From positions 1 through 12,057 of the forward strand of contig USCJ01000028.1 of assembly GCA_900553215.1 (NCBI GenBank): a DNA stretch of 12,057 bases. The letters run 5' to 3'. Made by a program: the position numbers and the translations under genes. This stretch comes from an uncultured Collinsella sp. (GTDB taxonomy: Bacteria > Actinomycetota > Coriobacteriia > Coriobacteriales > Coriobacteriaceae). How positions within the stretch are numbered: position 1 is the first letter of the stretch; each line of letters opens with the position of its first letter. The notes under the pieces are model-generated. The model saw nothing but the letters and a program-made list of their open reading frames with translations, ran no database searches and was not told the origin of the DNA. This document shows positions 1 through 12,057 of the stretch, piece by piece.

Positions 1-467
1 CCCGCCATGAGGACTTCTTCGCTCGTGCCGTGGTAGATGGGCATGCTCACGTCGATGGAGGGAATCTCGATCCAGCTCATCATAGGGTCGCGGTCAAAGA
101 TGAGCTGCTGAGCGTAGGGCTCGATCTGATCGGCGGGAAGCTCGGTGGCCTCGCCCGCCAGCTGCTCGTTAAAGGAGCGCGCCTGGAGCAGGATGCGCTC
201 GCGCTCCTCGGCAGACAGCGCGTCCACGGTGCTGGACACGGTGCTGATCTGGTTGAACACGCCCGAGGCCTCGAGCCGGTCCAAGATCCACGGCCAGGTC
301 ATAAGGCCCACGCCAACAAGGATGATCACGATGGTGATGAGCCGGTCGGCCCAGCGCGGCAGTCGCTTGCGGCGACGCTTGGGCTTTGGTTGAGGTTTGG
401 GCTGAGGGCTTGAGCCACCGTCTGCCGCGGCGTTATTGCTCTTCATATGTTTGGTGCCCTGCACCAT
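1..467 (-). CDS. Class C (pilus) sortase, N-terminal part, cut by window edge
   Basis: This gene encodes the start of a membrane-anchored pilus sortase, the transpeptidase that cuts LPXTG-type signals and joins pilin subunits through lysine side chains. 155 codons are visible. Residues 1-40 form a cytoplasmic tail rich in Pro, Lys and Arg (PKPQPKPKRRRKR). A transmembrane helix follows at about 42-62. Residues 65-128 are a helical linker, and the sortase fold begins at about 131 with SWIEIPSIDVSMPIYHGTSEEVLMA. This matches the class C consensus I-E-I-P-x-I-x-x-x-x-P-I-Y-H-G-T-S-E-E-V-L. The catalytic His, Cys and Arg lie beyond the window. I chose the ATG at 467 because AGAGGAG sits 9 bases upstream; an in-frame ATG at 446 has a poorer site. 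A typical DPF/DPW lid motif is not obvious before the beta-barrel; DP appears only at residues 127-128. The gene follows the three pilin genes on the same strand, so it probably polymerises them. The family call is firm, but the exact substrate is inferred from position. Confidence 0.9.
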   Translation of the reverse strand, partial: MVQGTKHMKSNNAAADGGSSPQPKPQPKPKRRRKRLPRWADRLITIVIILVGVGLMTWPWILDRLEASGVFNQISTVSSTVDALSAEERERILLQARSFNEQLAGEATELPADQIEPYAQQLIFDRDPMMSWIEIPSIDVSMPIYHGTSEEVLMA

Positions 468-650
468 CGCCGGTCACTCCTCTACAGCTCAGGTTGTCTA
501 AACAAATAATAGCCGAATCGCGAGCTTCCGCGCCGGACAACACAGCTAGACAGCATTGTGCGGCGCGAGCATAGGCCAGCATTTGCGTTTTCAAAATGTC
601 CCGGATCGGCGGGGCGATTCGGGATACAATGTCAACAGAAAACGACGCAC

Positions 651-752
651 CCCGCGTAAGTACTTAGGAGCGCGGGCAGCCTAGTTTTCAGCTTTAGTTA
701 AATGCCCGGGATCCGACCCCCGGGCATTCTTATTTGCGCTTGCGGCGCAAAT
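651..752. other. Cluster of three hairpins, possible small RNA or leader
   Basis: There are three inverted repeats in a row. Arms CCCGCG (651-656) and CGCGGG (671-676) flank a loop that contains the 10-base palindrome TAAGTACTTA. Arms AATGCCCGGG (701-710) and CCCGGGCATT (719-728) pair perfectly around an 8-base loop and are followed on the plus strand by CTTATTT. Arms ATTTGCGC (732-739) and GCGCAAAT (745-752) enclose 5 bases. On the plus strand the second hairpin resembles an intrinsic terminator, and TACAAT at 625-630 could start a transcript of about 100 bases. On the minus strand the cluster would sit in the sortase leader. I do not recognise an RNA family, and which strand is transcribed is open. 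Confidence 0.4.
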
Positions 753-871
753 GCCTTCTACCGTCCGCACCGCGCGTGCGCCTACGGACCTTAATCCGAA
801 CCTCATACGAGTCAAGAAACGCGATGACGAACGTACCCGCATCGGACGGTGGAGGCTGGCTGCGTTATCCC

Positions 872-908
872 AAAAAACGGGGCAGAATCCAGTGCGGAGT
901 CTGCCCCG
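872..908 (-). terminator. Intrinsic terminator of the pilin genes
   Basis: On the minus strand a perfect 9-base stem (CGGGGCAGA 908-900 pairing with TCTGCCCCG 886-878) encloses a 13-base loop. Six T residues (877-872) follow at once. It lies about 100 bases downstream of the backbone-pilin stop codon and is the clearest intrinsic terminator in the window. It separates the three pilin genes from the sortase gene. Confidence 0.85.
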
Positions 909-1008
909 AAAAGAAAATGACAAAGCAAGAACGTGGATGGACGAGAAAAGTGTCCGCAAGTCTCATGGCCATCACATCCCACCTGCCAAAGGGATGGGTG
1001 AGCGAGCG

Positions 1009-2670
1009 TTACTCCTGCTCGGACTCCTCAGCCTGCTTACGGCTGCGGATGAGATGAGCCACGCCGATGCACAGCACCGCGCCACCAGCGATCCAAGTGA
1101 ACGTCACGCCGTTAAGGCCGGTGAGCGGGAGGCCGGAACCCTGCTTGTTTTTGACGATCAAGGCAGCAGTACCGTTGTCCGTGTTAGTCGTGTCAACCTC
1201 GACCAAATTGGAACCCCTGGTGCTCGTCTTGACCGTAATCTTGTTTTCTCCCTCTCCCTCTGCTTGGTTGAATCCAATGGCTTTGATGGTGAAGGTGAAC
1301 TCGGGGATGGTGTTATAGCCGGCGAGCGTATGGGTCTCCTTGACGGTGTAGGTGCCGGCATCGAGGCCCTTGACGTTAATCTCGCCGGAGTCGGTGGTCG
1401 TGAACTCATAAGCCTCAGTACCGAGGGAGCCATTCTCCTGGACATACATGTCCTTGGATGCAATATCGTCGGGATCAGTGGCACGGATGGTGAACTTTAC
1501 GCCCTTAAGTATCTTATTCTCATCCGTCGCGTCCTTCTTGACGAGCTTGAGCGCATAGGTGTAGTCGCGCACGGTGTCGGGCACAGACTCACCCCGGGAA
1601 TCGTGGCCAGGGTTGTTGGAGTAGATGAGCTTGACGGTGTTGGAGTTGCCCGTGCCACCGACAACGACATGCTGGGACTTATTCGGGTCGAGCTTGGCGC
1701 TGTACGTGACAACGACCCTTGTATGCTCGCCGACAGTGACGCCGGCCGCCGTGGCGGCAGCCTTAAGATCGTCAAACTTTACGCTCAAGACCGTTCTGCC
1801 ATTTGAATCGGGATCAGACACGGTCACAGAAGTAGGCGTGATCTGAGTCTCACCAATCACGGCCTTGACAGTGGACTTATCAACAGTCAAACCGGCAGAC
1901 AGCTCATCGTGGAACTCATAATAGTAGGTGCTGAACGTGTCGACATTGCTTGCAACCGTGCCGGTCAGCTTGTACTGAACGGTCTGACCCATCTGGGAGT
2001 CCGCCTTGTACTTCCAGTCGTTGTCCGCACCATCGTCCTTGACCTGCTTCGTCACGGTCGGGATGCTCGTCTTCTCGGTAACGACCACTGCGTTGCCGCC
2101 CACGACTGCAAAGATCGGCGAGGTACCGGTCTGCTTCTCATTCGCACTGAGCGAGTCGGTATCGGTCATGAACAGGTAGTAGCCAGCGCTCGTAGTGGTG
2201 AAAGCGCGACCGGCGGCAAAGGAATCGCCCGTAGCGGTAACACTCTTCTCTACAGCCAAGGCAATCTTGTTAAGGATGCTGCTCTGCGGCAGACTCGTGG
2301 TATCAGTGGTATCAGTGATCTTGGAAAGGTAGTCGGCAACGTCAGAAGCGGTCGAGTCTAAGGTAATCCCTGGGGCATTATTATCAACAAGCACCTTCAG
2401 GACCGCAGTCTCTGCGTCATCACTCGCCCACTCAATGTTGGACGCAACCTTACCGGACTTTCCGTCAATAACGTCAGCCTTAAAAATCTGATACGCCTTG
2501 AACGAAGTGGAGTCATTGTCCACGGACTTGTTAATCGTGAGCGAATAGCTGGGGGCAGCACCCTCCGCAGCAAACGCCATCGTGACTGTCGCCATCACGC
2601 CGCCGAAGCTCAGGGCTGCGGTGAGGCCGGCGGTTACTGCCAGGCGTGCGATGTTCTTGGTTGTTTTCAT
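1009..2670 (-). CDS. SpaA/FimA-like backbone (major) pilin, LPLTG-anchored
   Basis: This is a 553-residue cell-wall-anchored fimbrial shaft subunit. Residues 1-35 are a signal peptide (basic start, hydrophobic core, AFA-A cleavage region). An N-terminal domain runs to about 198. A middle isopeptide-type domain spans about 204-355: it starts PTVTKQV, has the YKLTGTVASNVDTFSTYYYEFHDELSAGL strand pattern seen in two pieces at 233-261, and ends NTVKLIYSNNP. A C-terminal CnaB-type domain covers about 370-510. Likely intramolecular isopeptide residues in CnaB are K378 and N508 with E445. E445 sits in an E-box, YTVKETHTLAGY. K208 in TVTKQV, or a nearby Lys, is a candidate pilin-motif or isopeptide lysine. 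The sorting signal is LPLTG (514-518), a hydrophobic helix and a tail starting RSRK. AAAGAGGT lies 7 bases before the ATG. Lack of cysteine in the mature part and its place next to the sortase fit a backbone role, but that role is inferred. Confidence 0.9.
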   Translation of the reverse strand: MKTTKNIARLAVTAGLTAALSFGGVMATVTMAFAAEGAAPSYSLTINKSVDNDSTSFKAYQIFKADVIDGKSGKVASNIEWASDDAETAVLKVLVDNNAPGITLDSTASDVADYLSKITDTTDTTSLPQSSILNKIALAVEKSVTATGDSFAAGRAFTTTSAGYYLFMTDTDSLSANEKQTGTSPIFAVVGGNAVVVTEKTSIPTVTKQVKDDGADNDWKYKADSQMGQTVQYKLTGTVASNVDTFSTYYYEFHDELSAGLTVDKSTVKAVIGETQITPTSVTVSDPDSNGRTVLSVKFDDLKAAATAAGVTVGEHTRVVVTYSAKLDPNKSQHVVVGGTGNSNTVKLIYSNNPGHDSRGESVPDTVRDYTYALKLVKKDATDENKILKGVKFTIRATDPDDIASKDMYVQENGSLGTEAYEFTTTDSGEINVKGLDAGTYTVKETHTLAGYNTIPEFTFTIKAIGFNQAEGEGENKITVKTSTRGSNLVEVDTTNTDNGTAALIVKNKQGSGLPLTGLNGVTFTWIAGGAVLCIGVAHLIRSRKQAEESEQE

Positions 2671-2778
2671 GTTGGGACCTCTTTCTTGGAGGTTGCTTTA
2701 ATTCTCGTCATCACCAAAAGTCAGCAGGCTCATTTCCCTGCGCTCTAATCGCTACGGAGGTAGTACGCCACTGAGCAA

Positions 2779-2785
2779 GGGGGGG
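2779..2785. repeat. Seven-G run in the gap between the two pilin genes
   Basis: The plus strand has GGGGGGG (C7 in the mRNA direction) four bases after the stop codon of the upstream minor pilin and about 110 bases before the backbone-pilin start. It is outside any coding frame, so slippage would change only the spacer. The 118-base gap has no terminator-like hairpin, so read-through from the upstream pilin is likely. Confidence 0.5.
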
Positions 2786-2788
2786 CAA

Positions 2789-4444
2789 TTATTTATCATG
2801 GCGACCTCCTCCCCGCTTGATGACGAGCGCGACGACAATAGCCACTACTCCGATGACGGCCAAAGCCGTTACCAACACCAACGTTCTATCTCCCGTCGAG
2901 GGCATAAAGCCTCGACTCACTTCGTTACTTGGGGTGTTAAGCACCGACAACTCGACTAAACCCTTCCCGGCATCGGCGGCATCAACTCGCAGAGGGCTTT
3001 CGGCCGATACGGTCACCTTAGGCTTGGCGGCCGCCACCTGGTCGACATCCAGGCCCTCGGCCTTGACCGTCACGCAGCACGTGCCCTCAAAGGCGGTGTA
3101 GCCCTTGGGCGCCTTGAGCTCGCGGACCTCCAGCTTGCCCGAGTCCACGCCCGAGACGGTCACGCGGCCGTCCTCGCCCGTGGTGACGGTGGCCTTGCCC
3201 TCCGCATCCCACGTGCCATCGGCCGCTAGCGTGCGGCCGCGGTCGTCGGCGATGCTCAGGACCGCCCCGGCAAGCGGCTTGTCGCCGTCGCTGCCGCGCT
3301 TGGTGAGCGCGAGATCCCAGGTGTAGGCGCACGCATCATCGCTCGGCGTGCGAGTGAAGCCGGCATCGCTGAACTGGTCGGCAAAGGGAGAGCGCGGGTA
3401 ACGCAGGTAGACCTCGTTGGGGTTGCCCTTCGCGATGCCGTGGTTGCACGCGCTGTTGAGCGGCGCGTTGTACACGGCGACCACGCGGGCGCCCGCGGTG
3501 AAGGCGTCGGCCCCGCCGAGCGCGGCGATGAGGTCGCCGGTACGCACGGTGAAGGTTCCGTCAACCGCTACCTTGGTGGCGCACTGGGCCGTGATGTCGG
3601 TCCAGCCCTTCGCGGGCTCGGTGTCGGCTCGGCCGTCCTTGCCGGTCTGGACGGCGTCGAAGCCACCGTCCGCGCCCGCCGCCACGTACACGCGCATGCT
3701 CGCGGCCACCTTGGAGGGGTCGAGCCCCGCGCTCATGGTGTCGACGAACCGCACCGCGTAGGTGTCGTAGGCCGTGAGCCCCGCCGGGACCGTGGCAGAG
3801 AGGCGCCAGTACAGGTCGTCGGCGACCGTGGCGTCGGCGGCCTTCTGCCATGCGGCGGTGCTGTCCTCCAGCACGTGCTTGGACACCTTGGGGGTCGCGG
3901 CCTTGGGCTTGACGGTGACGGCGCTGCCGCCCACCAGGGCCATGATCGGCGCGGTGCCGGCCTCGCCCTGGGCGATGGCGTCGTCGTCGGCGACGATGAG
4001 CCAGTAGCCGCAGGGCAGCTCGGCCGCCGTGCCCGCGTTGAGGGCCGCGAGCTCGGCGCCAGAGCTCTGGAGGGAACGAGCGAGCTGCGCGCTCAGCGCG
4101 CTCGTAAGGTGGGAATCGGTGTTGAGCCACTCGGCAGCTTCCTGCGCGGTGGTCTGGGAATTGGGCATGCCGGCGCTGTGCAGCACAGGCAGCGCGGCGT
4201 CGCGCACGGCGTCGCTTGCCCAGGCGAGGTCGGTGGCGATCTTGGCGTCGCTGTCGCCGTCGACGACGTTGGCGCTAAAGATCTGGTAGGCGTCGTAGCT
4301 GCGCGCCACGGTGCCGCTCACCGTGATGGAACCGGTCGAGGTCGGCGCGGCCTGCGCGGATGCGGGGAACACAACCGCGCAGGTGCCGATCAGGAGGGTA
4401 AGCAGCGCAAACAAGATCGGGAAGGAGCAAACTTTCTTATTCAC
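2789..4444 (-). CDS. SpaA-like minor or basal pilin, MPSTG-anchored, GTG start
   Basis: This is a 551-residue secreted pilin paralogous to the backbone pilin. Both share an N-terminal block of the type AYQIF-x-A-x-V-x-DG then WASD, a middle domain ending N-P/S-N-x-V-x-L-x-Y, and a C-terminal CnaB-type domain. The signal peptide is residues 1-32 (cleavage near ASAQA-A). Candidate isopeptide residues are K189 with N343 in the middle domain, and K382 with N503 plus E442 (VRELKAPKGY E-box) in the last. The sorting motif is the variant MPSTG (514-518), followed by a long hydrophobic helix and tail KRGGGRHDK. I chose GTG at 4444 because GGGAGGT lies 7 bases upstream and it gives a clean signal peptide; an upstream ATG at 4525 would add 27 residues without a fitting signal. 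The start overlaps the tip gene by 8 bases, implying translational coupling. Six cysteines in the mature part and markedly higher GC set it apart from its neighbours. Minor or basal role is inferred. Confidence 0.87.
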   Translation of the reverse strand: MNKKVCSFPILFALLTLLIGTCAVVFPASAQAAPTSTGSITVSGTVARSYDAYQIFSANVVDGDSDAKIATDLAWASDAVRDAALPVLHSAGMPNSQTTAQEAAEWLNTDSHLTSALSAQLARSLQSSGAELAALNAGTAAELPCGYWLIVADDDAIAQGEAGTAPIMALVGGSAVTVKPKAATPKVSKHVLEDSTAAWQKAADATVADDLYWRLSATVPAGLTAYDTYAVRFVDTMSAGLDPSKVAASMRVYVAAGADGGFDAVQTGKDGRADTEPAKGWTDITAQCATKVAVDGTFTVRTGDLIAALGGADAFTAGARVVAVYNAPLNSACNHGIAKGNPNEVYLRYPRSPFADQFSDAGFTRTPSDDACAYTWDLALTKRGSDGDKPLAGAVLSIADDRGRTLAADGTWDAEGKATVTTGEDGRVTVSGVDSGKLEVRELKAPKGYTAFEGTCCVTVKAEGLDVDQVAAAKPKVTVSAESPLRVDAADAGKGLVELSVLNTPSNEVSRGFMPSTGDRTLVLVTALAVIGVVAIVVALVIKRGGGRHDK

Positions 4445-7400
4445 GACGCTTACCTCCCTTCGCATTCGCCTTGCGACGAATGTGCATCCAGGCCGCAGCA
4501 GCGCAAAGCACCACCGCGCCGGCAAGGTACGTCAGAGTGACGCCCGACATACCAGAAAGGGGCAAAGAGGTGGAGTAGGTGTTGGTGAAGGTGGGGGTGG
4601 AACTTTCAGTGAGTTCGCGGCCCGTGTCGTTGGTCACTGGCTTGCCATCACGATCCTGAATCTGCTTGTAGGTCGCAGTGACGTCGATATGGTGGTTAGA
4701 GTCGTCAGTCGCGTTAACCGTAATCTGATAGACCGACTTGTCGTACGTATAGTGCGAGAACAGCGAACCGTCGTCTTTCTCGCGCACGTAGTACGTGAAG
4801 GTCTTGGAAGCACCACGGCCAGCGGGGCCAGACGCGAGCTGGTCGAGTTGATCGAGTTTGTAATCAATCTTGTCGAAGCTCAGGGTCTGGGACTTGTCGC
4901 CGTCGGCAGGGGTGGACTTGCTGCTAACGATATCCGTAAAATCTGTGTCGGTCGCAAGCTGGAGCGTGAACTCCTTCATCTCGCCACCCTCAACGACCTT
5001 AGTCGCCATAGGCGTCCAGGAGCCCTTCGAGTCGTACGGAGTGAACTTGTTAGTGAAAGTCGTGGAGTCACCCTCACAGATAATTGGATAATAGTCTCCA
5101 CTCTTCTGCACCTTGCTCCTCGCTTTTACGTTCTCCCACTTCCCAGACGACTCGCGGAATTCGTACTTGGTTACACCGACGTTTTTAATCGTGTAGTTAT
5201 GGATGTAAAGATCCTTCAGTTGGCTTGAGTTTTCTTTACTCGGAACAGACATGAGCAAGGTCTTGGTATCTTCGGCCGTCACCACAATCTTATACACGCT
5301 GGAGTCGTACGTGATGCCAGAATCACCACCGGGGTCTTCGACCAAGTAGTATGTGATTTCGTTACCCGCGCCACTCGATGCGAATTGTTCACCAAGGTCA
5401 AACGTAATGCTGCCTTCTGCATCATTTGCTGCTGTTCCAACCTCGGTGCAAACGTCGCGATTGAATGTCGTGCCAGCTGTCGTGCCAGCCAAAGGGTCGT
5501 CTGAATCCTTGCGATACACCGTAAAGGAGAACTCCCCATCATTGAGCTTGCGGCCTTCCAGCTTCTTGGTCGCCTTGAGCTTGAGGCTCGGATAGACATA
5601 CGTGTCCTCAGGCGCGCCCATGTACAGGTCGCCGTTCGACATGATGCCGCCGCCATGGTTCCAGGAATAATTGCCCGTGATAAACGTCGCGCCCGCCTCT
5701 AGCGCAGCCTTTCGCGCATTGATCGCCTCGGGGTCTTGAGCCTTAACATCCGAACTCAGGCCGATGCTTTTATATACCTGCACGCCACCGTTAGCGGGGA
5801 TAGTAATGGCTTTCTGGAGCTCTAAGCTTCCCCGATACTTAGCATCGCCGCCGCCAAGCATTTTGCCAATCACCGCCGCGATCGGAGTCGTATGACCCTC
5901 CGCCGCAAGGAAGAAGTCCGCGTGGCCGTTTTCGCGAAACACTTCGGCATTGTAGGCGTCGGAGTCCTGGTCCTTACCGTGACCACCGCCGGAAAGATGG
6001 GGGGTGCCGTTATTGCCTGTATTACTCACGGATTCGTAGTCGTTCGCGTTTTGCTCATTTCCGGCAGAAGTATTACCGAAAATCGCCGTGCCGTCGGTGC
6101 CTGTCACCAAAGTCTTACCCGTCGGGCAAACCGCAACGCCGCCACCGTAGCCACCGGCCTCATTGCTGCTTATATAGGAGTTATAGACAAATAGCCTACC
6201 AGCATTAGACGCGACCTTAGAATCGCCCTGGACGAAGATGCCGCCTCCACCCCAGTCAAAGCGAGACATGCAGTGGTTATTAGTGATATAGACTGGATTT
6301 GAATTTGACGTTCCTTTTATCATCGCGTCAACCATCTGGCCCACGCGAATGCCGGCACCCTCAGAGCGAAAACTCACGTTAGAGGCAATAGTTCCCCCCG
6401 TAATGTTGAGCCATGCCATTGTCTTGCGCGAGCTCGCCCCTTGGTGTTCGATGTCGGTCACATAGACGCCGCCGCCGGCTTCCTCAGAATAGTTGCCCGT
6501 GATCTGGCCGCCCGAAATGGTGACATGAGTACCGTTTTTAGCGGCAAGTCCAGCACCGCCATGATCGCCATTACCATCGTTACCACAGTAATTGGCATAT
6601 TTATTGTTAGTAATGTAGCCACCAGAAACAGTAACGCTGCCGCCTTCGGCCATGATGCCGCCGCCGAAACCAACACCAGTAGCAAGCGTGCTGTTGCCGG
6701 AGATTACGCCATTAGTTATGTTGACCGTGGAGTCTTTAGCATACACACCACCGCCACTAGGAGCACTGTTGCCGGCAATTACGCCACCGGAAACCTCGAG
6801 GGTCGAATTACCGTGTATTTCAATTCCGCCGCCCGCACCCGAGCCAGAAGCTCCACACACATAGCCGCCGCGCATGTTGACGGTAGAGCCGTTCTCGGCA
6901 TAGACCAAGCTGCTAACGCTGCCGCCTTGTTTTTGCGTGATCACGCCGCTCACAAGGTTAAACGTGCCGCCCTTGCCGTTGTTGTTATATAGATTGATGA
7001 GCTTTAGATTTGCGTTGCCGCCGCACGCCACGATGGCGCCCTTAATATCGACGCTATGGCTGACAAGCGTCTCGATTGTCCCTGTACCACTCGGGGTCGA
7101 TTTAGTCACGTAGTAGGTAAGATCAGACGGAATGCCATCATCGTATTTTAGCTCGGCTTTCTCGCCATAATTATCGGGATTCAGGTCCTGCCCCTGATTA
7201 GTCAGCTGTCGAACATCGTTAACCGTCTCAGTCACCGGCGCGAAGTCCTTAATTTCGTCCTTAATTGTAAGTGTTGCGCCGCCAGCAACATCAAATAACG
7301 GCTTGTCGGTGTTCAAGCACTTGATCTTATGACCGTTTAGATTAAGGGTGATATTGATGGGGTTGTCGTCAGTTTGTTCAAACCTAATCTCTTGGTTGCA

Positions 7401-7910
7401 TTCAATATCGTTAACGAGCTCAAAAATAGCTGAGCCGGATGCATCGCGAAGTTTATTGTCAAGAAGCTTCGTGCTGAGTTCAGCCCCACTGCTGATTGTA
7501 TAAGTCGATTCATTATTTGCAGCAAGTGAGATTGCGCCCTCGCCGTTAGCACCGTCATCCGCAGGCTGTGCGTCGGAAGGCTGCGTGTCACCCCCGACCT
7601 TCGTGTCGTCGGACGGCAGGCCTGCGGCAGCGGCGTCTTCGCTCGCGCCATTCTCGGCATCGTCGCTATTCTGGTTTTCGGTATCCCCGTTAGTGGTGTT
7701 GTCTACACCAGTAGACTCACTTGAGGAACCCCCCCCCATCACAGTTTCCTCGGTAGAAACCGTCTGGGCATCGTTGGCAATGGCCTGCGAGATCGGAGGC
7801 ATGACGAGCGACAGTACCAGGCTCAAAACGGAGGCTCCGCACAAAACGCCTGCCAGTACACGGCGCGTCGCTTTATTACTCTGCTTAGATTTGTCCGAAT
7901 TCGCTTTCAT
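4437..7910 (-). CDS. Large pilus tip-type adhesin: beta-helix stalk, two Spy0128 domains, LPLSG anchor
   Basis: This is a 1157-residue secreted surface protein. Residues 1-46 are a long signal peptide (KATRR, then a hydrophobic core ending SQAIA). Residues 48-128 are a disordered linker rich in Ser, Asn, Asp and Gly. From about 135 to 620 there are irregular repeats of the type SGG-x-I-x-GN and GGG-I/V (for example ISGNS, VIAGNSA, TGNYSEEAGGGV), typical of right-handed parallel beta-helices as in polymorphic outer-membrane or pectate-lyase-like proteins. A last such piece is near 742-760. Two Spy0128/FctA-type domains follow. The first spans about 776-956 (K782, E858, N954 as likely isopeptide triad; GRKLNDGEFSF motif). 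The second spans about 968-1112 (K971, E1044, N1110). The sorting motif is LPLSG (1116-1120), then a hydrophobic helix and RRK tail. GGAGGAG lies 6 bases before the ATG. It is first in the operon and the largest subunit, so a tip role is inferred; the ligand is unknown. Codons 58-61 contain a G9 run. Confidence 0.88.
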   Translation of the reverse strand: MKANSDKSKQSNKATRRVLAGVLCGASVLSLVLSLVMPPISQAIANDAQTVSTEETVMGGGSSSESTGVDNTTNGDTENQNSDDAENGASEDAAAAGLPSDDTKVGGDTQPSDAQPADDGANGEGAISLAANNESTYTISSGAELSTKLLDNKLRDASGSAIFELVNDIECNQEIRFEQTDDNPINITLNLNGHKIKCLNTDKPLFDVAGGATLTIKDEIKDFAPVTETVNDVRQLTNQGQDLNPDNYGEKAELKYDDGIPSDLTYYVTKSTPSGTGTIETLVSHSVDIKGAIVACGGNANLKLINLYNNNGKGGTFNLVSGVITQKQGGSVSSLVYAENGSTVNMRGGYVCGASGSGAGGGIEIHGNSTLEVSGGVIAGNSAPSGGGVYAKDSTVNITNGVISGNSTLATGVGFGGGIMAEGGSVTVSGGYITNNKYANYCGNDGNGDHGGAGLAAKNGTHVTISGGQITGNYSEEAGGGVYVTDIEHQGASSRKTMAWLNITGGTIASNVSFRSEGAGIRVGQMVDAMIKGTSNSNPVYITNNHCMSRFDWGGGGIFVQGDSKVASNAGRLFVYNSYISSNEAGGYGGGVAVCPTGKTLVTGTDGTAIFGNTSAGNEQNANDYESVSNTGNNGTPHLSGGGHGKDQDSDAYNAEVFRENGHADFFLAAEGHTTPIAAVIGKMLGGGDAKYRGSLELQKAITIPANGGVQVYKSIGLSSDVKAQDPEAINARKAALEAGATFITGNYSWNHGGGIMSNGDLYMGAPEDTYVYPSLKLKATKKLEGRKLNDGEFSFTVYRKDSDDPLAGTTAGTTFNRDVCTEVGTAANDAEGSITFDLGEQFASSGAGNEITYYLVEDPGGDSGITYDSSVYKIVVTAEDTKTLLMSVPSKENSSQLKDLYIHNYTIKNVGVTKYEFRESSGKWENVKARSKVQKSGDYYPIICEGDSTTFTNKFTPYDSKGSWTPMATKVVEGGEMKEFTLQLATDTDFTDIVSSKSTPADGDKSQTLSFDKIDYKLDQLDQLASGPAGRGASKTFTYYVREKDDGSLFSHYTYDKSVYQITVNATDDSNHHIDVTATYKQIQDRDGKPVTNDTGRELTESSTPTFTNTYSTSLPLSGMSGVTLTYLAGAVVLCAAAAWMHIRRKANAKGGKRRE
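4452..4458 (-). promoter_or_regulatory. Ribosome binding site that fixes the GTG start of the minor pilin
   Basis: GGGAGGT (4458-4452 on the minus strand) lies inside the last codons of the tip-adhesin gene, 7 bases before GTG at 4444-4442. The tip gene stops with TAA at 4439-4437, so the two reading frames overlap by 8 bases. Ribosomes finishing the tip gene would therefore be delivered to this site. Confidence 0.8.
7729..7737 (-). repeat. Nine-G run in the tip-adhesin coding strand, candidate phase switch
   Basis: The coding strand reads ATG GGG GGG GGT at codons 58-61, nine G in a row, within the disordered linker after the signal peptide. At G9 the frame is open for 1157 codons. With ten G the frame reads TTC CTC AAG TGA and stops. 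With eight G it reads GTT CCT CAA GTG AGT CTA CTG GTG TAG and stops. Either event would leave a secreted fragment of about 65-70 residues. Changes of three G would only alter the number of glycines, which a flexible linker should tolerate. Confidence 0.75.
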
Positions 7911-7999
7911 CGATGTCTCCTCCCCAAGAGACCGCGATCTTGCTCTTTCACTATCAAACGTATCTGCGCAATCTGTAATTGCGCTCGTTTAGTAATGCA

Positions 8000-8029
8000 A
8001 TTATAACGATTGTTTAAACATCTGAGCAA
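8000..8029 (-). promoter_or_regulatory. Candidate promoter of the pilus operon
   Basis: On the minus strand, TATAAT (8005-8000) is a perfect -10 hexamer, with TTGCTC (8029-8024) at 18 bases as a weak -35. Transcription would begin near 7993 and give a leader of about 80 bases before the tip-adhesin ATG. The spacer contains the 10-base palindrome TGTTTAAACA (8011-8020). The -35 lies inside one arm of the TTGCTCAGAT inverted repeat, so a regulator binding there could control the operon. Confidence 0.55.
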
Positions 8030-8082
8030 CAAAACCGACATTTTTGTCGCGAGTTCTCAATTCTCTTGACATTTGCTCAGAT
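8020..8082. repeat. Inverted 10-base repeat TTGCTCAGAT at the pilus promoter
   Basis: ATCTGAGCAA (8020-8029) and TTGCTCAGAT (8073-8082) are perfect reverse complements, 53 bases apart centre to centre, about five helical turns. A third, partial copy TTGCTCA lies at 8177-8183. The left copy overlaps the candidate -35. The layout suits a protein that binds two sites on one face of the DNA, but no regulator gene is visible in the window. Confidence 0.45.
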
Positions 8083-8201
8083 TTACCTTCGTTTATTCGC
8101 TATCTATTTTTTGTTTCTGCTGGTAATTTAGTTGCGTATTATTTTTTAATGGCATTAGTTTTATTTGCACAACATTTTGCTCAAGAGCGAGCATCCTGTG
8201 A

Positions 8202-8220
8202 ACGGTCGAAAATCGACCGT
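8202..8220. repeat. Perfect short hairpin or operator-like palindrome
   Basis: ACGGTCGA (8202-8209) and TCGACCGT (8213-8220) pair perfectly around AAA. It has no T run on either side, so it is not a typical intrinsic terminator. It sits in the AT-rich gap and may be a protein binding site or an RNA hairpin. Confidence 0.45.
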
Positions 8221-8223
8221 GAG

Positions 8224-8257
8224 TGGTAGGTCATTAACCGGGATGAATATCCTACCA
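8224..8257. repeat. TGGTAGG / CCTACCA inverted repeat
   Basis: TGGTAGG (8224-8230) and CCTACCA (8251-8257) are separated by 20 bases that include ATTAA. The arrangement resembles the pair at 10872-10908 (TTGGTAGAT and ATCTACCAA, 19-base spacer that includes TTTAA). Both lie in gaps that also hold a copy of the CCACAAAGG hairpin. Confidence 0.4.
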
Positions 8258-8367
8258 AATTGATGAGAATATCTTTAACCCATCGGTGGTTAGAAGCATG
8301 ATGTTCAGACAACTATATTTGAATTTTCGCGCAGATTTTAGGTATCAATTCGCCCAAATCGCCTGAG

Positions 8368-8402
8368 GCCGCCACAAAGGTGCCTATTCCCTTTGTGGTG
8401 GC
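8368..8402. repeat. Dispersed hairpin repeat, copy 1
   Basis: CCACAAAGG (8372-8380) pairs perfectly with CCTTTGTGG (8390-8398), extended outward by one G-T pair and GCC/GGC for 13 pairs in all. The loop is TGCCTATTC. The core and start of the loop match copies at 9330-9363 and 10915-10951. It lies 12 bases past the stop codon of the HAD phosphatase on the minus strand, where it could end that transcript, though no T run follows. Confidence 0.75.
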
Positions 8403-8414
8403 TCTCCCCCGGCG

Positions 8415-9236
8415 CTACAGCAGATGTTCCTCGATAAAGATCGCGATGCCGTCTTCGTCGTTGCTCGCGGTTACAAAATCGGCAGCGGAGCGGGTGGCAT
8501 CGCTGCCGTTTGCCATGGCCACGCCCACGCCGGCGTCGGCAACCATGCAGGTGTCGTTATCGGCATCGCCAAACACGCAGATGTTCTGGAGCTCCATGCC
8601 GTTGAGCTCCGCCACACGCACAAGGCCGCGTGTCTTGGACACGCGCGGATCCATAAACTCGTAGAGCCGCTGCGTGGTTTGCAGAGCCGCCGCCTTAACA
8701 GTGTCATCAGCAAACGTCGACGCCCGCTCAATCACCCGCGGCATTACCTCAGGCGCCATGGTAAACATCACCTTGGGCTGCGGCTCGCGCAAAAACTCGG
8801 CAAAATCGACCACCTGGTAGGGCACGCCGTCGACGCGTGACAGGTGCTCGACGCACGCGTTGCTCTCGGGCACGTAGAACACGCCGTCTCGGGGGCAGAC
8901 GGGCGTTGCCGGAAGGTCCGCCATGTGCTTGCAGATGCGCGCGATGGTCTCGCCCGGCAGCGGATAGCTCAGCTCGTTGATGTCGTGTGCGCGGTCGATG
9001 ACCTCGGCATCACCGCAGCCCACGAGCACGTCCACCAGGCCTTCGATGCCCCAGAGCTCGTACATGGCCTCGGTCGAGTGGGCGTCACGCCCGGTGCACA
9101 GGCCAAAGAGCACGCCACGCTCGCGCAGGGCGCGGATCGCCGCCACGGTGCGCGGGGACACCGTGTGCTGGCTCGTGAGCAGCGTACCGTCGATATCGCA
9201 GAACACGGCTTTGATGTGGCTGAAGGTGGTGTCCAT
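8415..9236 (-). CDS. HAD-superfamily Cof-type phosphatase
   Basis: This is a 273-residue soluble hydrolase of HAD subclass IIB (Cof/YidA-like), enzymes that remove phosphate from sugar phosphates and related small molecules. All four motifs are present. Motif I is FCDIDGTLL with nucleophile D14 and acid/base D16. Motif II is GLCTGR (45-50). The motif III lysine is K201 in VSKTRGL. Motif IV is FGDADND (222-228), followed by GVGVAMANGSDATRSAADFVT, the usual Cof-family tail. The cap domain lies at about 85-195. Length is normal for the family. I start at the ATG at 9236, which has AAGG a few bases upstream and begins right before motif I. A longer frame from 9413 would run through a hairpin repeat and adds residues unlike any HAD protein. 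The substrate cannot be read from sequence. It is probably a single-gene transcript, as repeats lie on both sides. Confidence 0.92.
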   Translation of the reverse strand: MDTTFSHIKAVFCDIDGTLLTSQHTVSPRTVAAIRALRERGVLFGLCTGRDAHSTEAMYELWGIEGLVDVLVGCGDAEVIDRAHDINELSYPLPGETIARICKHMADLPATPVCPRDGVFYVPESNACVEHLSRVDGVPYQVVDFAEFLREPQPKVMFTMAPEVMPRVIERASTFADDTVKAAALQTTQRLYEFMDPRVSKTRGLVRVAELNGMELQNICVFGDADNDTCMVADAGVGVAMANGSDATRSAADFVTASNDEDGIAIFIEEHLL

Positions 9237-9290
9237 GGGGGCCTTTCTGGGTTGTGCGGCGGTGTGGGGTGTATTCGTGAACGGCGTACA

Positions 9291-9300
9291 TGGTATACCA
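9291..9300. repeat. TGGTATACCA palindrome
   Basis: TGGTATACCA is a perfect 10-base palindrome in the leader of the HAD phosphatase gene, 30 bases from hairpin-repeat copy 2. It could be an operator. It echoes the TGGTA/TACCA ends of the inverted repeats near the other two hairpin copies, but it is short enough to be chance. Confidence 0.3.
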
Positions 9301-9329
9301 AGGCGCGCACGGGGCGCTTTGGTGCAAAA

Positions 9330-9363
9330 CCACCACAAAGGTGCCTGGCCCCCTTTGTGGTGG
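9330..9363. repeat. Dispersed hairpin repeat, copy 2
   Basis: CCACCACAAAGG (9330-9341) and CCTTTGTGGTGG (9352-9363) form a perfect 12-base stem around a loop TGCCTGGCCC. The loop itself is quasi-palindromic (GCC-T-GGC). Similarity to copy 3 continues past the right arm, where both have GACGTTT-x-CG, and on the left both have an A run before CCACC. It lies between the transporter stop and the phosphatase start, on no coding frame. Confidence 0.8.
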
Positions 9364-9381
9364 AAGTGACGTTTGCGGGCC

Positions 9382-9446
9382 AAACCATCACAACATTCGA
9401 TGTTTTTTGGCAAAATCGCGATTTTTACCGAATGTTGTGATGGTTT
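9382..9446. repeat. 65-base palindromic element with 18-base perfect arms
   Basis: AAACCATCACAACATTCG (9382-9399) is the exact reverse complement of CGAATGTTGTGATGGTTT (9429-9446). Inside the arms is a second palindrome, AAAATCGCGATTTT (9412-9425). The element begins 12 bases past the stop codon of the MFS transporter and 18 bases from hairpin-repeat copy 2. It could fold into a very stable RNA hairpin and stop or stabilise the transporter mRNA, but only three T follow on the minus strand. A non-autonomous mobile palindrome is the other possibility. Confidence 0.75.
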
Positions 9447-9458
9447 CTTACCTGTTTC

Positions 9459-10739
9459 TTACCGCTTTACGGCACGATCCAGATGCCGGCGTCCAAACAG
9501 CAGCAGCGCCGCGGGAACCGCCGTCACGACCATGCCCGCCCCCACGAGTGTCCGTTGTACGCCAAATGTTGCCGCCAGCCACGGTGCAACCGCCAGAGGG
9601 GCCACGCCAGCGAACATATTGCCAAAGCCCATGACCGAATTCACACGGCCAAGTTGCTCGAGCGGAGCCGTCGTTTGCACGATGGTGTTGTGGAGCGGGT
9701 TGACGACACCCCAAGCTATGCCCAGGGCGATCTGACCGACAAGGGCCACGCCCACGTACGGCGTCCCCACATAGAGCAGACTTCCCAGGCCCACGGACAT
9801 AAGCGCCACGAGCAGCGTTTTAAGGTTGACCAGGTGCGGCGGCAAGCGGAGCGCGAGCACGGCACCCAGCACCGCGCCGACACCGCAGGCAGACGAGAGC
9901 CAGCCCATCCACTCAACGCCGACGCGTAGGACATCGCGATAGAAAAACGACTCGAGCGGGTCGAAGGCTCCGTAACCAAAGTTCGAAAGAAAAATGATGC
10001 AGAAAAGTAGCGCGAGGACGCTGTTGGTGAAGACTGTCTTGATGCTAGCTGCGAAGGTGGCGCGGGCGGACGTGCTGGGGTTGGAGCTTTGTCCCGCACG
10101 CTCCCCTTCCTCTGCCGAATCGGCATCCGCATGCCCGGCGACATGGCTGGTCTGCGGCCTAAAGCCCCAGCCGGCGAGAAGCGCCAACGCGGTAAAGAGC
10201 ATCATGAGCACAAACACCGCGCGCGACGACGCAGCAGCCGCGACAAAGCCGCCCAGTGTGGGGCCAACGATAATACTCACGTTTGAGAACATGGCGATGG
10301 CGGAGTTGATGTCTTTGAGCTCGACAGGATCGTCGGTGAGGTAGGCCGGATAGGACGTGGCAATGGGCTGGGCGAATCCCATCACAAATCCCAGAAACAC
10401 CGCGCCGAGCAGGACGATGCCGGTCGCGCTGCCAAAGGCGATGATTGCCGTGCCAGTTGCGAGCGCGCCGATAATGCTCAGCAAGAAATGACGGCGCGGA
10501 CCCCAGGCGTCGAGCGCCGCGCCGCCCGCAAAGGATCCCAGGATCACGAAAACGTTCATGAACAGGACGGCCAGCGATGTCGCGACGACCGAAGCGCCGT
10601 CCGCATAGGTGAGTGTTCCGATAACGCCGATAAAATAACTGGTCTGAAACCCGGTGTAGATGAGAAAGCGCATCGCCACCAGGCGCTTGGCCTGCACGGA
10701 CAGCGACGAGCGGAATTTTGGGAATACAGATGCGGGCAT
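9459..10739 (-). CDS. MFS transporter, 12-helix, exporter-like
   Basis: This is a 426-residue inner-membrane protein of the major facilitator superfamily, in which proton-coupled carriers move small solutes or drugs. Hydrophobic segments fit two bundles of six helices. The loop between helices 2 and 3 carries a motif-A-like sequence, GGAALDAWGPRR (72-83). A hydrophilic charged linker at about 194-226 (AGHADADSAEEGERAGQ) joins the two halves, as expected between helices 6 and 7. GFAQPIATSYPAYLTDD at 121-137 is like the helix 4-5 region of efflux MFS proteins of the EntS/MFS_3 kind. AAGGAG is placed well before the ATG at 10739. The protein ends DRAVKR and is full-length. Substrate is unknown; the export direction is inferred from family resemblance. 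It is followed by a long palindrome and is probably transcribed alone. A link to the neighbouring glucosidase is not shown. Confidence 0.9.
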   Translation of the reverse strand: MPASVFPKFRSSLSVQAKRLVAMRFLIYTGFQTSYFIGVIGTLTYADGASVVATSLAVLFMNVFVILGSFAGGAALDAWGPRRHFLLSIIGALATGTAIIAFGSATGIVLLGAVFLGFVMGFAQPIATSYPAYLTDDPVELKDINSAIAMFSNVSIIVGPTLGGFVAAAASSRAVFVLMMLFTALALLAGWGFRPQTSHVAGHADADSAEEGERAGQSSNPSTSARATFAASIKTVFTNSVLALLFCIIFLSNFGYGAFDPLESFFYRDVLRVGVEWMGWLSSACGVGAVLGAVLALRLPPHLVNLKTLLVALMSVGLGSLLYVGTPYVGVALVGQIALGIAWGVVNPLHNTIVQTTAPLEQLGRVNSVMGFGNMFAGVAPLAVAPWLAATFGVQRTLVGAGMVVTAVPAALLLFGRRHLDRAVKR

Positions 10740-10871
10740 GAGGGCTCCTTATTGCATACGAATGTGGACAGCGGGCATTCGCCGCGCCGTCCATTGACTC
10801 AATCTATCCGTATGCCTTGCTAAGGTCGCATCGAGCCCTTTCCTTACGTCTTTCCGCCCAACATGAACCAC

Positions 10872-10908
10872 TTGGTAGATTTTAAGGCATGTCCCAAATA
10901 TCTACCAA
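10872..10908. repeat. TTGGTAGAT / ATCTACCAA inverted repeat
   Basis: TTGGTAGAT (10872-10880) and ATCTACCAA (10900-10908) are perfect 9-base inverted repeats with a 19-base spacer. The pair lies in the gap between the glucosidase terminator and the MFS start, about 130 bases upstream of the MFS ATG, so it could be an operator. It resembles the TGGTAGG/CCTACCA pair at 8224-8257. Confidence 0.45.
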
Positions 10909-10951
10909 AGAAAAAACCACCACAAAGGTGCCTGGCCCCTTTGTGGTGGTT
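10907..10951 (-). terminator. Dispersed hairpin repeat, copy 3, acting as glucosidase terminator
   Basis: AACCACCACAAAGG (10915-10928) and CCTTTGTGGTGGTT (10938-10951) form a perfect 14-base stem around a 9-base loop, TGCCTGGCC in plus-strand order. On the minus strand the stem runs into T residues (10916-10911), then C and TTT, which is a good intrinsic terminator. It lies 27 bases past the glucosidase stop codon. It is the best of the three copies of this repeat. Confidence 0.82.
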
Positions 10952-10978
10952 GCGACGTTTACGCTGGTTGAGACTTGG

Positions 10979-12057
<1,079 letters not shown>

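Follow-up and report, generated by a model that had tools for sequence, protein, structure and literature searches.

Collinsella, a common genus of the human gut, has been associated with several diseases. The locus considered here raises the question of whether a run of nine guanines (G9), placed early in the gene that opens a Collinsella operon for sortase-dependent pili, is an ordinary stretch of coding sequence or a slipped-strand switch through which the gene is turned on and off. It lies on a contig from an uncultured Collinsella sp. (GenBank assembly GCA_900553215.1, contig USCJ01000028.1), the forward strand of which was analysed over positions 1 to 12,057, hereafter referred to as the window. 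Our answer is that the run is very probably a phase switch of this gene. The tract itself, its reading frames, the natural alleles of eight, nine and ten Gs (G8, G9 and G10, to be distinguished from genome handles such as G008) and the open downstream frame of the shifted alleles are all observed. We infer from these sequences that, within a clone, slippage is frequent enough to be useful, that it can be reversed and that it alters the display of pili.

Position and reading frames of the tract

The features that make up the proposed switch are:

7729..7737, minus strand: G9 tract (C9 on the plus strand), the proposed switch, at codons 58-61 of the tip gene
4437..7910, minus strand: pilus tip or first pilin gene of 1157 codons, in frame (ON), with FctA (Spy0128-like) domains and a C-terminal LPLSG
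7740..7910, minus strand: leader, codons 1-57, comprising a signal peptide (recognized by eye) and the start of a linker; its DNA is strongly conserved although the bodies of relatives differ
7703..7705, minus strand: TAG terminating the G8 reading, the stop taken from frame reading and its position set by hand
7717..7719, minus strand: TGA terminating the G10 reading, taken and positioned in the same way

The original prediction, made from the letters alone, had placed the tract in this gene and at these codons, and both its coordinates and its frame are correct. Within the open reading frame (ORF) at 4437..7910 the run spans the G of ATG58, all of GGG59 and GGG60 and two Gs of GGT61, and is thus a coding homopolymer of slippable length. 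Simulated changes in length behaved as had been foreseen: both wrong frames are OFF, a G8 tract leading to TAG after 68 codons and a G10 tract to TGA after 64, and multiples of three are ON, G6 and G12 tracts keeping the tip gene in frame. In the mechanism that we propose, replication slippage would alter the run by one G. At nine Gs the signal-peptide leader and the tip body would be read in one frame, yielding a protein that could undergo export and assembly into the pilus; at eight or ten, translation would end after 64-68 codons and the tip would not be made.

Taken alone, the window points only weakly to an excess of such runs over chance: it has four words of seven Gs where 1.83 would be expected, a count that 32 of 200 shuffles also reach. 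GGG accounts for 9 of the 147 other glycine codons of the tip gene, whose glycine codon usage gives GGG-GGG-GGT a chance of about 0.001 of encoding three glycines. An argument from run frequency alone was considered and dropped, G9 runs not being rare in Collinsella: eight distinct runs of at least nine Gs are present in each of two genomes (G015 and G042; two complete listings, counted by eye). Going by the relatives compared, what lies beyond chance is that other genomes carry the run at this same codon, and do so in lengths of 8, 9 and 10. The sequence pattern of the leader start had no exact copy among viral contigs.

Natural length variants among relatives

The genome set comprised 98 genomes around the nearest relative of the window, 43 of which match the tip protein at an E value of 0.001; a scan of titled genomes for the start-codon DNA returned 18 contigs, all from Collinsella, two of which add to the 43-genome set. 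The relatives are all Collinsella and belong to the class Coriobacteriia, the class in which the host had tentatively been placed by the original prediction. Twenty of the 43 genomes bear the leader and ten of these have the tract: seven with G9 (G001, G005, G007, G008, G015, G029 and G042), two with G8, namely Collinsella sp. TF06-26 (G019) and C. aerofaciens 1001095H_141210_H8 (G036), and one, C. aerofaciens MCC370 (G010), with G10. One of the two additional genomes has G9 (L062) and the other is without a tract (L067), such that the 12 tract sequences available (the window and 11 Collinsella genomes) comprise nine G9, two G8 and one G10. Close relatives differ by single-unit steps, as expected of slipped-strand variation, and the uniform G9 length that had been named beforehand as the observation counting against a switch is not what the genomes show. 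The comparison of TF06-26 (G8) with G008 (G9) is the most direct: the 1,976 columns that follow the tract hold four substitutions and no gap, the only gap between the two being a single column at the tract, with divergence further down.

Protein databases hold the products of both states. A search with the G8-type leader of TF06-26 found 161 short proteins, and the 120 listed were assigned to classes by peptide patterns. Sixty-six of the 120 are off-frame (36 G8, 16 G10, 6 G7, 2 G11, and 6 that enter the -1 frame through one base less beside the tract); the others comprise 7 in-frame leaders, 11 with foreign tails, 8 with MGCSK ends and 28 that are tractless or end otherwise. A query with the full tip returned 7952 relatives at an E value of 1e-50 among 7969 candidates scored, and the best 120 full-length matches read MGGGSSSES, the G9 reading at the protein level, in 119 cases and MGRGSSSES in one. 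To judge by these peptides, in-frame and shifted alleles both recur in public data.

Alternative explanations

The best surviving alternative is that RNA polymerase slippage or ribosomal frameshifting at the run generates a fixed mixture of products, the length of the DNA tract being of minor importance. We regard this as unlikely: polymerase slippage at such motifs is raised in the discussion of a study of Bifidobacterium breve pili (PMC9187656), but what decided the visibility of pili in that organism, according to the same text, was whether the DNA joined the two ORFs in one frame.

Less likely still is that the G8 and G10 lengths are assembly or sequencing errors in a gene that is always on. 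G runs are error-prone, and the authors of the B. breve study warn that assembled lengths can be wrong (PMC9187656). Moreover, four of 42 genomes (G007, G008, G027 and G029) hold from 90 to 989 G9 words each, partly as long runs in G008, an excess that likely reflects poly-G sequencing artefacts, and three of the four are genomes with a G9 tract. The three shifted genomes, on the other hand, hold 11 (G019), 12 (G010) and 10 (G036) such words, which is the usual range; two of them are isolate assemblies with coverages of about 51 and 94, and off-frame leaders recur across many protein clusters, some of them on contigs of more than 100 kb. Because G008 is among the four poly-G-heavy genomes it is the G9 of this genome that needs checking; the G8 of its partner, TF06-26, is free of the flaw.

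The view that the shifted alleles are dying pseudogenes, that is, fixed and irreversible losses, is similarly improbable. Among the 20 leader-bearing genomes two are rearranged and seven tractless, as gene decay might have it, but the shifted alleles are otherwise intact. The leader ends after 64-68 codons in all three, and the body frame is open from codon 62 over 1029 codons in TF06-26, 1059 in 1001095H_141210_H8 and 1009 in MCC370; each of these bodies, free of stops for more than 1,000 codons past the tract, has kept its sorting signal and ends in an LPLSG anchor, and in all three genomes the later frames of the operon that resemble pilins are open as well. Truncation in the wrong frames with the remainder of the gene intact is the pattern expected of slipped-strand control. 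Finally, a plain glycine linker with no regulatory role is the least credible of the alternatives, for although G9 encodes glycines in a low-confidence and probably disordered region of the structural model, the seven tractless leader genomes have other sequence at this site, where glycines are thus not needed, GGG is rare in the tip gene and single-G length variants occur naturally.

A number of observations weigh against a slipped-strand switch all the same. Besides the two rearranged genomes and one that is cut by a contig end (1/20), the seven tractless genomes are in frame, and the switch is therefore dispensable. Runs of nine Gs are fairly frequent in the Collinsella genomes compared, assembled lengths of G runs can be wrong, as noted above, and three of the seven G9 genomes of the 43-genome set (G007, G008 and G029), including the partner in the pairwise comparison above, are poly-G-heavy. 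The proportion of G8 to G10 among the database leaders is biased because the query was of the G8 type. Lastly, the leader DNA is so conserved that retention of the tract may in part reflect common descent. With these points taken into account, the interpretation of the run as a switch, as originally proposed, is supported by the comparison of genomes.

One leader in front of two tip bodies

Among relatives, a stretch of DNA that begins some 40 bases ahead of the start codon and extends to the tract is strongly conserved. The bodies behind it are of two kinds: alignment of window-type bodies with those of G008, G019, G010 and G003 is limited to roughly the last 140-260 residues, and that of the window body itself to the last 140-173. 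The first body type is found with G9 and G8, and the second with G9, G8 and G10. Since the leader DNA is conserved while the bodies differ, the leader with its tract behaves, as far as the compared loci indicate, as a module serving different tips. Another Collinsella family of LPXTG-type proteins, which has another leader, is devoid of runs of at least six Gs or Cs near the start at five of five loci, and the tract is therefore not a general habit of LPXTG-type genes.

A leader ending in MGCSK is present at two loci (L033 and L034, in G003 and G011), where the leader stop overlaps the GTG of the tip gene and this tip gene seems to carry a signal peptide of its own. In these two genomes the switch appears to have been replaced by a coupled leader.

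The tip gene and its operon

Other features of the window bearing on the operon are:

2789..4444, minus strand: second pilin, with a SpaA domain (3.2e-13) and an RrgB_K2N domain above cut-off
1009..2670, minus strand: major pilin-like gene with LPLTG, carrying SpaA and pilin backbone domains; its resemblance to SpaH/EbpB falls short of the NCBIfam cut-off
3..467, minus strand: class C sortase, truncated where the window ends (NF033745, 1.4e-15)
8000..8005, minus strand: TATAAT, a possible but unproven -10 box upstream of the leader, found by sequence and absent from the promoter-scan listing

Residues 969-1113 of the tip match FctA (PF12892, 8.6e-21), and the LPLSG at its C-terminus is an LPXTG-like sorting signal. 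The cluster combines pilin isopeptide domains, the anchors LPLSG, MPSTG and LPLTG (identified by eye) and a partial class C sortase, whose ORF, incomplete at the window edge, scores 57.6 bits against a cut-off of 160. The order tip, second pilin, major pilin and sortase-like ORF is shared by G042, where the last was recognized from its N-terminus only. On this domain content and order, the tip gene is the first of a sortase-pilus operon. We infer its location at the pilus tip and its binding role, implied by the term tip adhesin, from gene order, size and domains.

The second pilin starts at a GTG, read from the sequence, that overlaps the tip stop by 8 nucleotides (GTGAATAA), in agreement with the original description of the tip gene as first in its operon and coupled to the next gene; a GGGAGG lies inside the tip gene, upstream of this GTG. 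Translational coupling of the two genes would be expected from such an arrangement. With its start lying within the tip stop, the second pilin should be translated less when the tract is shifted, and the position of this start, together with the analogy to B. breve, suggests that the rest of the operon would probably be lowered too.

The AlphaFold model of the tip (built from 12 sequences) has a mean predicted local distance difference test score (pLDDT) of 65. Residues 1-133 score below 50 and are followed by a strand-rich body at about 134-610. The low-confidence N-terminus is consistent with the disordered linker in which the tract had been thought to lie, although low pLDDT is weak evidence of disorder. 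The best Foldseek matches of the model, listed without aligned ranges, are the streptococcal pilins 8f70 (3.4e-7) and 3klq; for the body at about 134-610 Foldseek gave no identity, whole-model template-modelling scores being near 0.1. A scan of promoters and terminators did no better than shuffled sequence (4 promoter-like hits against 4.6; 8 terminator-like hits against 8.0). A run of seven Cs in the coding sense is present at 2779-2785, upstream of the major pilin by about 110 bases, and is a run of six Cs in L058; with one other locus differing, this is too little to call the run variable.

Further poly-G loci in Collinsella

The contexts of other long runs were read by eye in G015 and G042 (seven stretches and the tip in each) and in six more of 20 stretches chosen by eye for long runs. 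Of the runs of at least nine, six of eight in G015 and three of eight in G042 lie at the 5' end of a gene or long ORF or close to it. Arranged like the tip gene is one that encodes a CAP-domain surface protein (PF00188) of at least 730 residues with a coiled coil (recognized by eye), in which the tract comes right after the signal peptide. Eight of the 43 genomes match it, six with G9 and two with G10 (L102, L109, L117 and L118-L125), and the G10 alleles stop after 61 codons. The 63 short proteins found with a shifted CAP leader as query comprise 12 with a G8 ending and 9 with a G10 ending, 11 that run into the end of an IS110-family insertion sequence, 9 shifted before the tract, one with a VSMV tail and 21 others. 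Leaders of Flp-like prepilins carry runs of 9, 10 and 11 Gs (L099, L100, L116 and L126-L130), the Flp_Fap match being below the Pfam cut-off, and a run is found at the start of brxA, a gene of BREX defence, in seven of the 43 genomes (four G9 and three G10; L101, L107 and L140-L146; BrxA match of 2e-30 in L101). At L099 there are two overlapping ATGs, each of which could be in frame at a different run length. L103 encodes a protein of at least 703 residues, with no Pfam match, whose signal-like N-terminus contains a G9 run.

An IS110-family element at G tracts

Some Collinsella tracts have apparently been entered by an IS110-family element. Its transposase carries both domains that mark this family, DEDD (PF01548) and Tnp20 (PF02371), and foreign tails of tip and CAP leaders equal the read-through of one end of such an element. 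Seven of the 11 foreign-tailed tip leaders match this end by 12 residues and an eighth (P0062) by 11; the other three have a VSMV tail. At the tip gene the insertion is seen in database peptides only (8 of 120 listed), and in the CAP gene it is seen in DNA, the element of G024 (L161/L177) lying inside the tract with CAP-gene sequence on both flanks. IS110-type ends were found at 53 places and their flanks read at 30 (L147-L176 among the loci): at least six Gs precede the end at eight of eight copies of a first subtype, as against two or three Gs at 20 of 20 copies of a second, and five and six at the two copies of a third.

IS110-family elements are described as bridge-RNA guided insertion sequences (PMC11208160, PMC11208158). 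The Collinsella element shares their transposase domains and differs in having one subtype that sits behind G runs. Beyond its transposase frame the element contains AACACCCCCC, which is complementary, by its letters alone, to the junction GGGGGGTGTT; Rfam returned no RNA match in the element. The right end of the element (ACTGTAATGGG) resembles the sequence before some tracts, and derivation of the tract from it was considered; we do not claim this, as tractless alleles already carry ACTGTG at that position.

The wider proposal that these loci invite is one that we hold tentatively, thinking it slightly more apt to fail than to stand. Collinsella may possess a multi-locus poly-G contingency system, comprising the pilus tip (with one leader-switch before two bodies whose similarity is confined to the C-terminal part), the CAP coiled-coil surface protein, the leaders of Flp-like prepilins and, possibly, the beginning of brxA, with one IS110 subtype that would target G runs and park in the switches as a second, insertional off state.

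Comparison with known systems

The closest parallel is that of B. breve UCC2003, in which bbr_0113 and bbr_1889 are described as poly-G pilus switches (Penno et al. 2022, PMC9187656). The bifidobacterial precedent invoked by the original prediction holds, having been shown in B. breve and extended to other bifidobacteria by sequence search in that article. Cultures are reported there to contain 37% G11, 59% G12 and 3% G10 at bbr_0113 and to be less mixed at bbr_1889, with 93.4% G10 and 6.5% G9; transcription fades past the leader stop, such that downstream polarity is expected, and strains with both ORFs in frame show pili, the parent being without them (PMC9187656). The Collinsella locus resembles those described in that text in that a cluster for sortase-dependent pili has the G tract in its first gene, between a signal peptide (recognized by eye in our case) and the body, and in that the shifted state gives a short leader ORF, that of bbr_1889a being 65 residues long. 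It differs in belonging to another class, the Coriobacteriia, and in being known here from sequence, in its lengths (G8-G10 in assemblies, G9-G12 in UCC2003 cultures) and in that most assembled Collinsella tract genomes are in frame, whereas the UCC2003 reference is not.

More distant parallels exist. The methyltransferase contingency gene with a poly-C/poly-G run described in PMC3711429 is alike in its coding homopolymer and one-base frame toggle, and unlike in that genes and hosts are unrelated. The pilins of Streptococcus pyogenes, Spy0128/FctA and FctB, are a parallel at the level of the protein, the C-terminal part of the tip (residues 969-1113, PF12892) matching FctA in sequence. To our knowledge, no poly-G switch operates in S. 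pyogenes pili. Neisseria and Campylobacter also have homopolymer contingency genes, again in genes and hosts unrelated to those considered here.

Collinsella is not named in the main text of PMC9187656, and a poly-G pilus switch in Collinsella or Coriobacteriia is unreported among the matches listed for titles and abstract openings of open-access PubMed Central articles, subscription papers being outside the scope of that search. The mechanism is already known from B. breve, and to this the present locus contributes another host class, naturally occurring alleles and a leader shared by different tips. If our interpretation is correct, annotation of an assembly with eight or ten Gs will report a broken tip gene, adhesion tests on single isolates will hinge on the state of the tract at the time of picking, and the switch known from bifidobacteria reaches a second class of the Actinomycetota.
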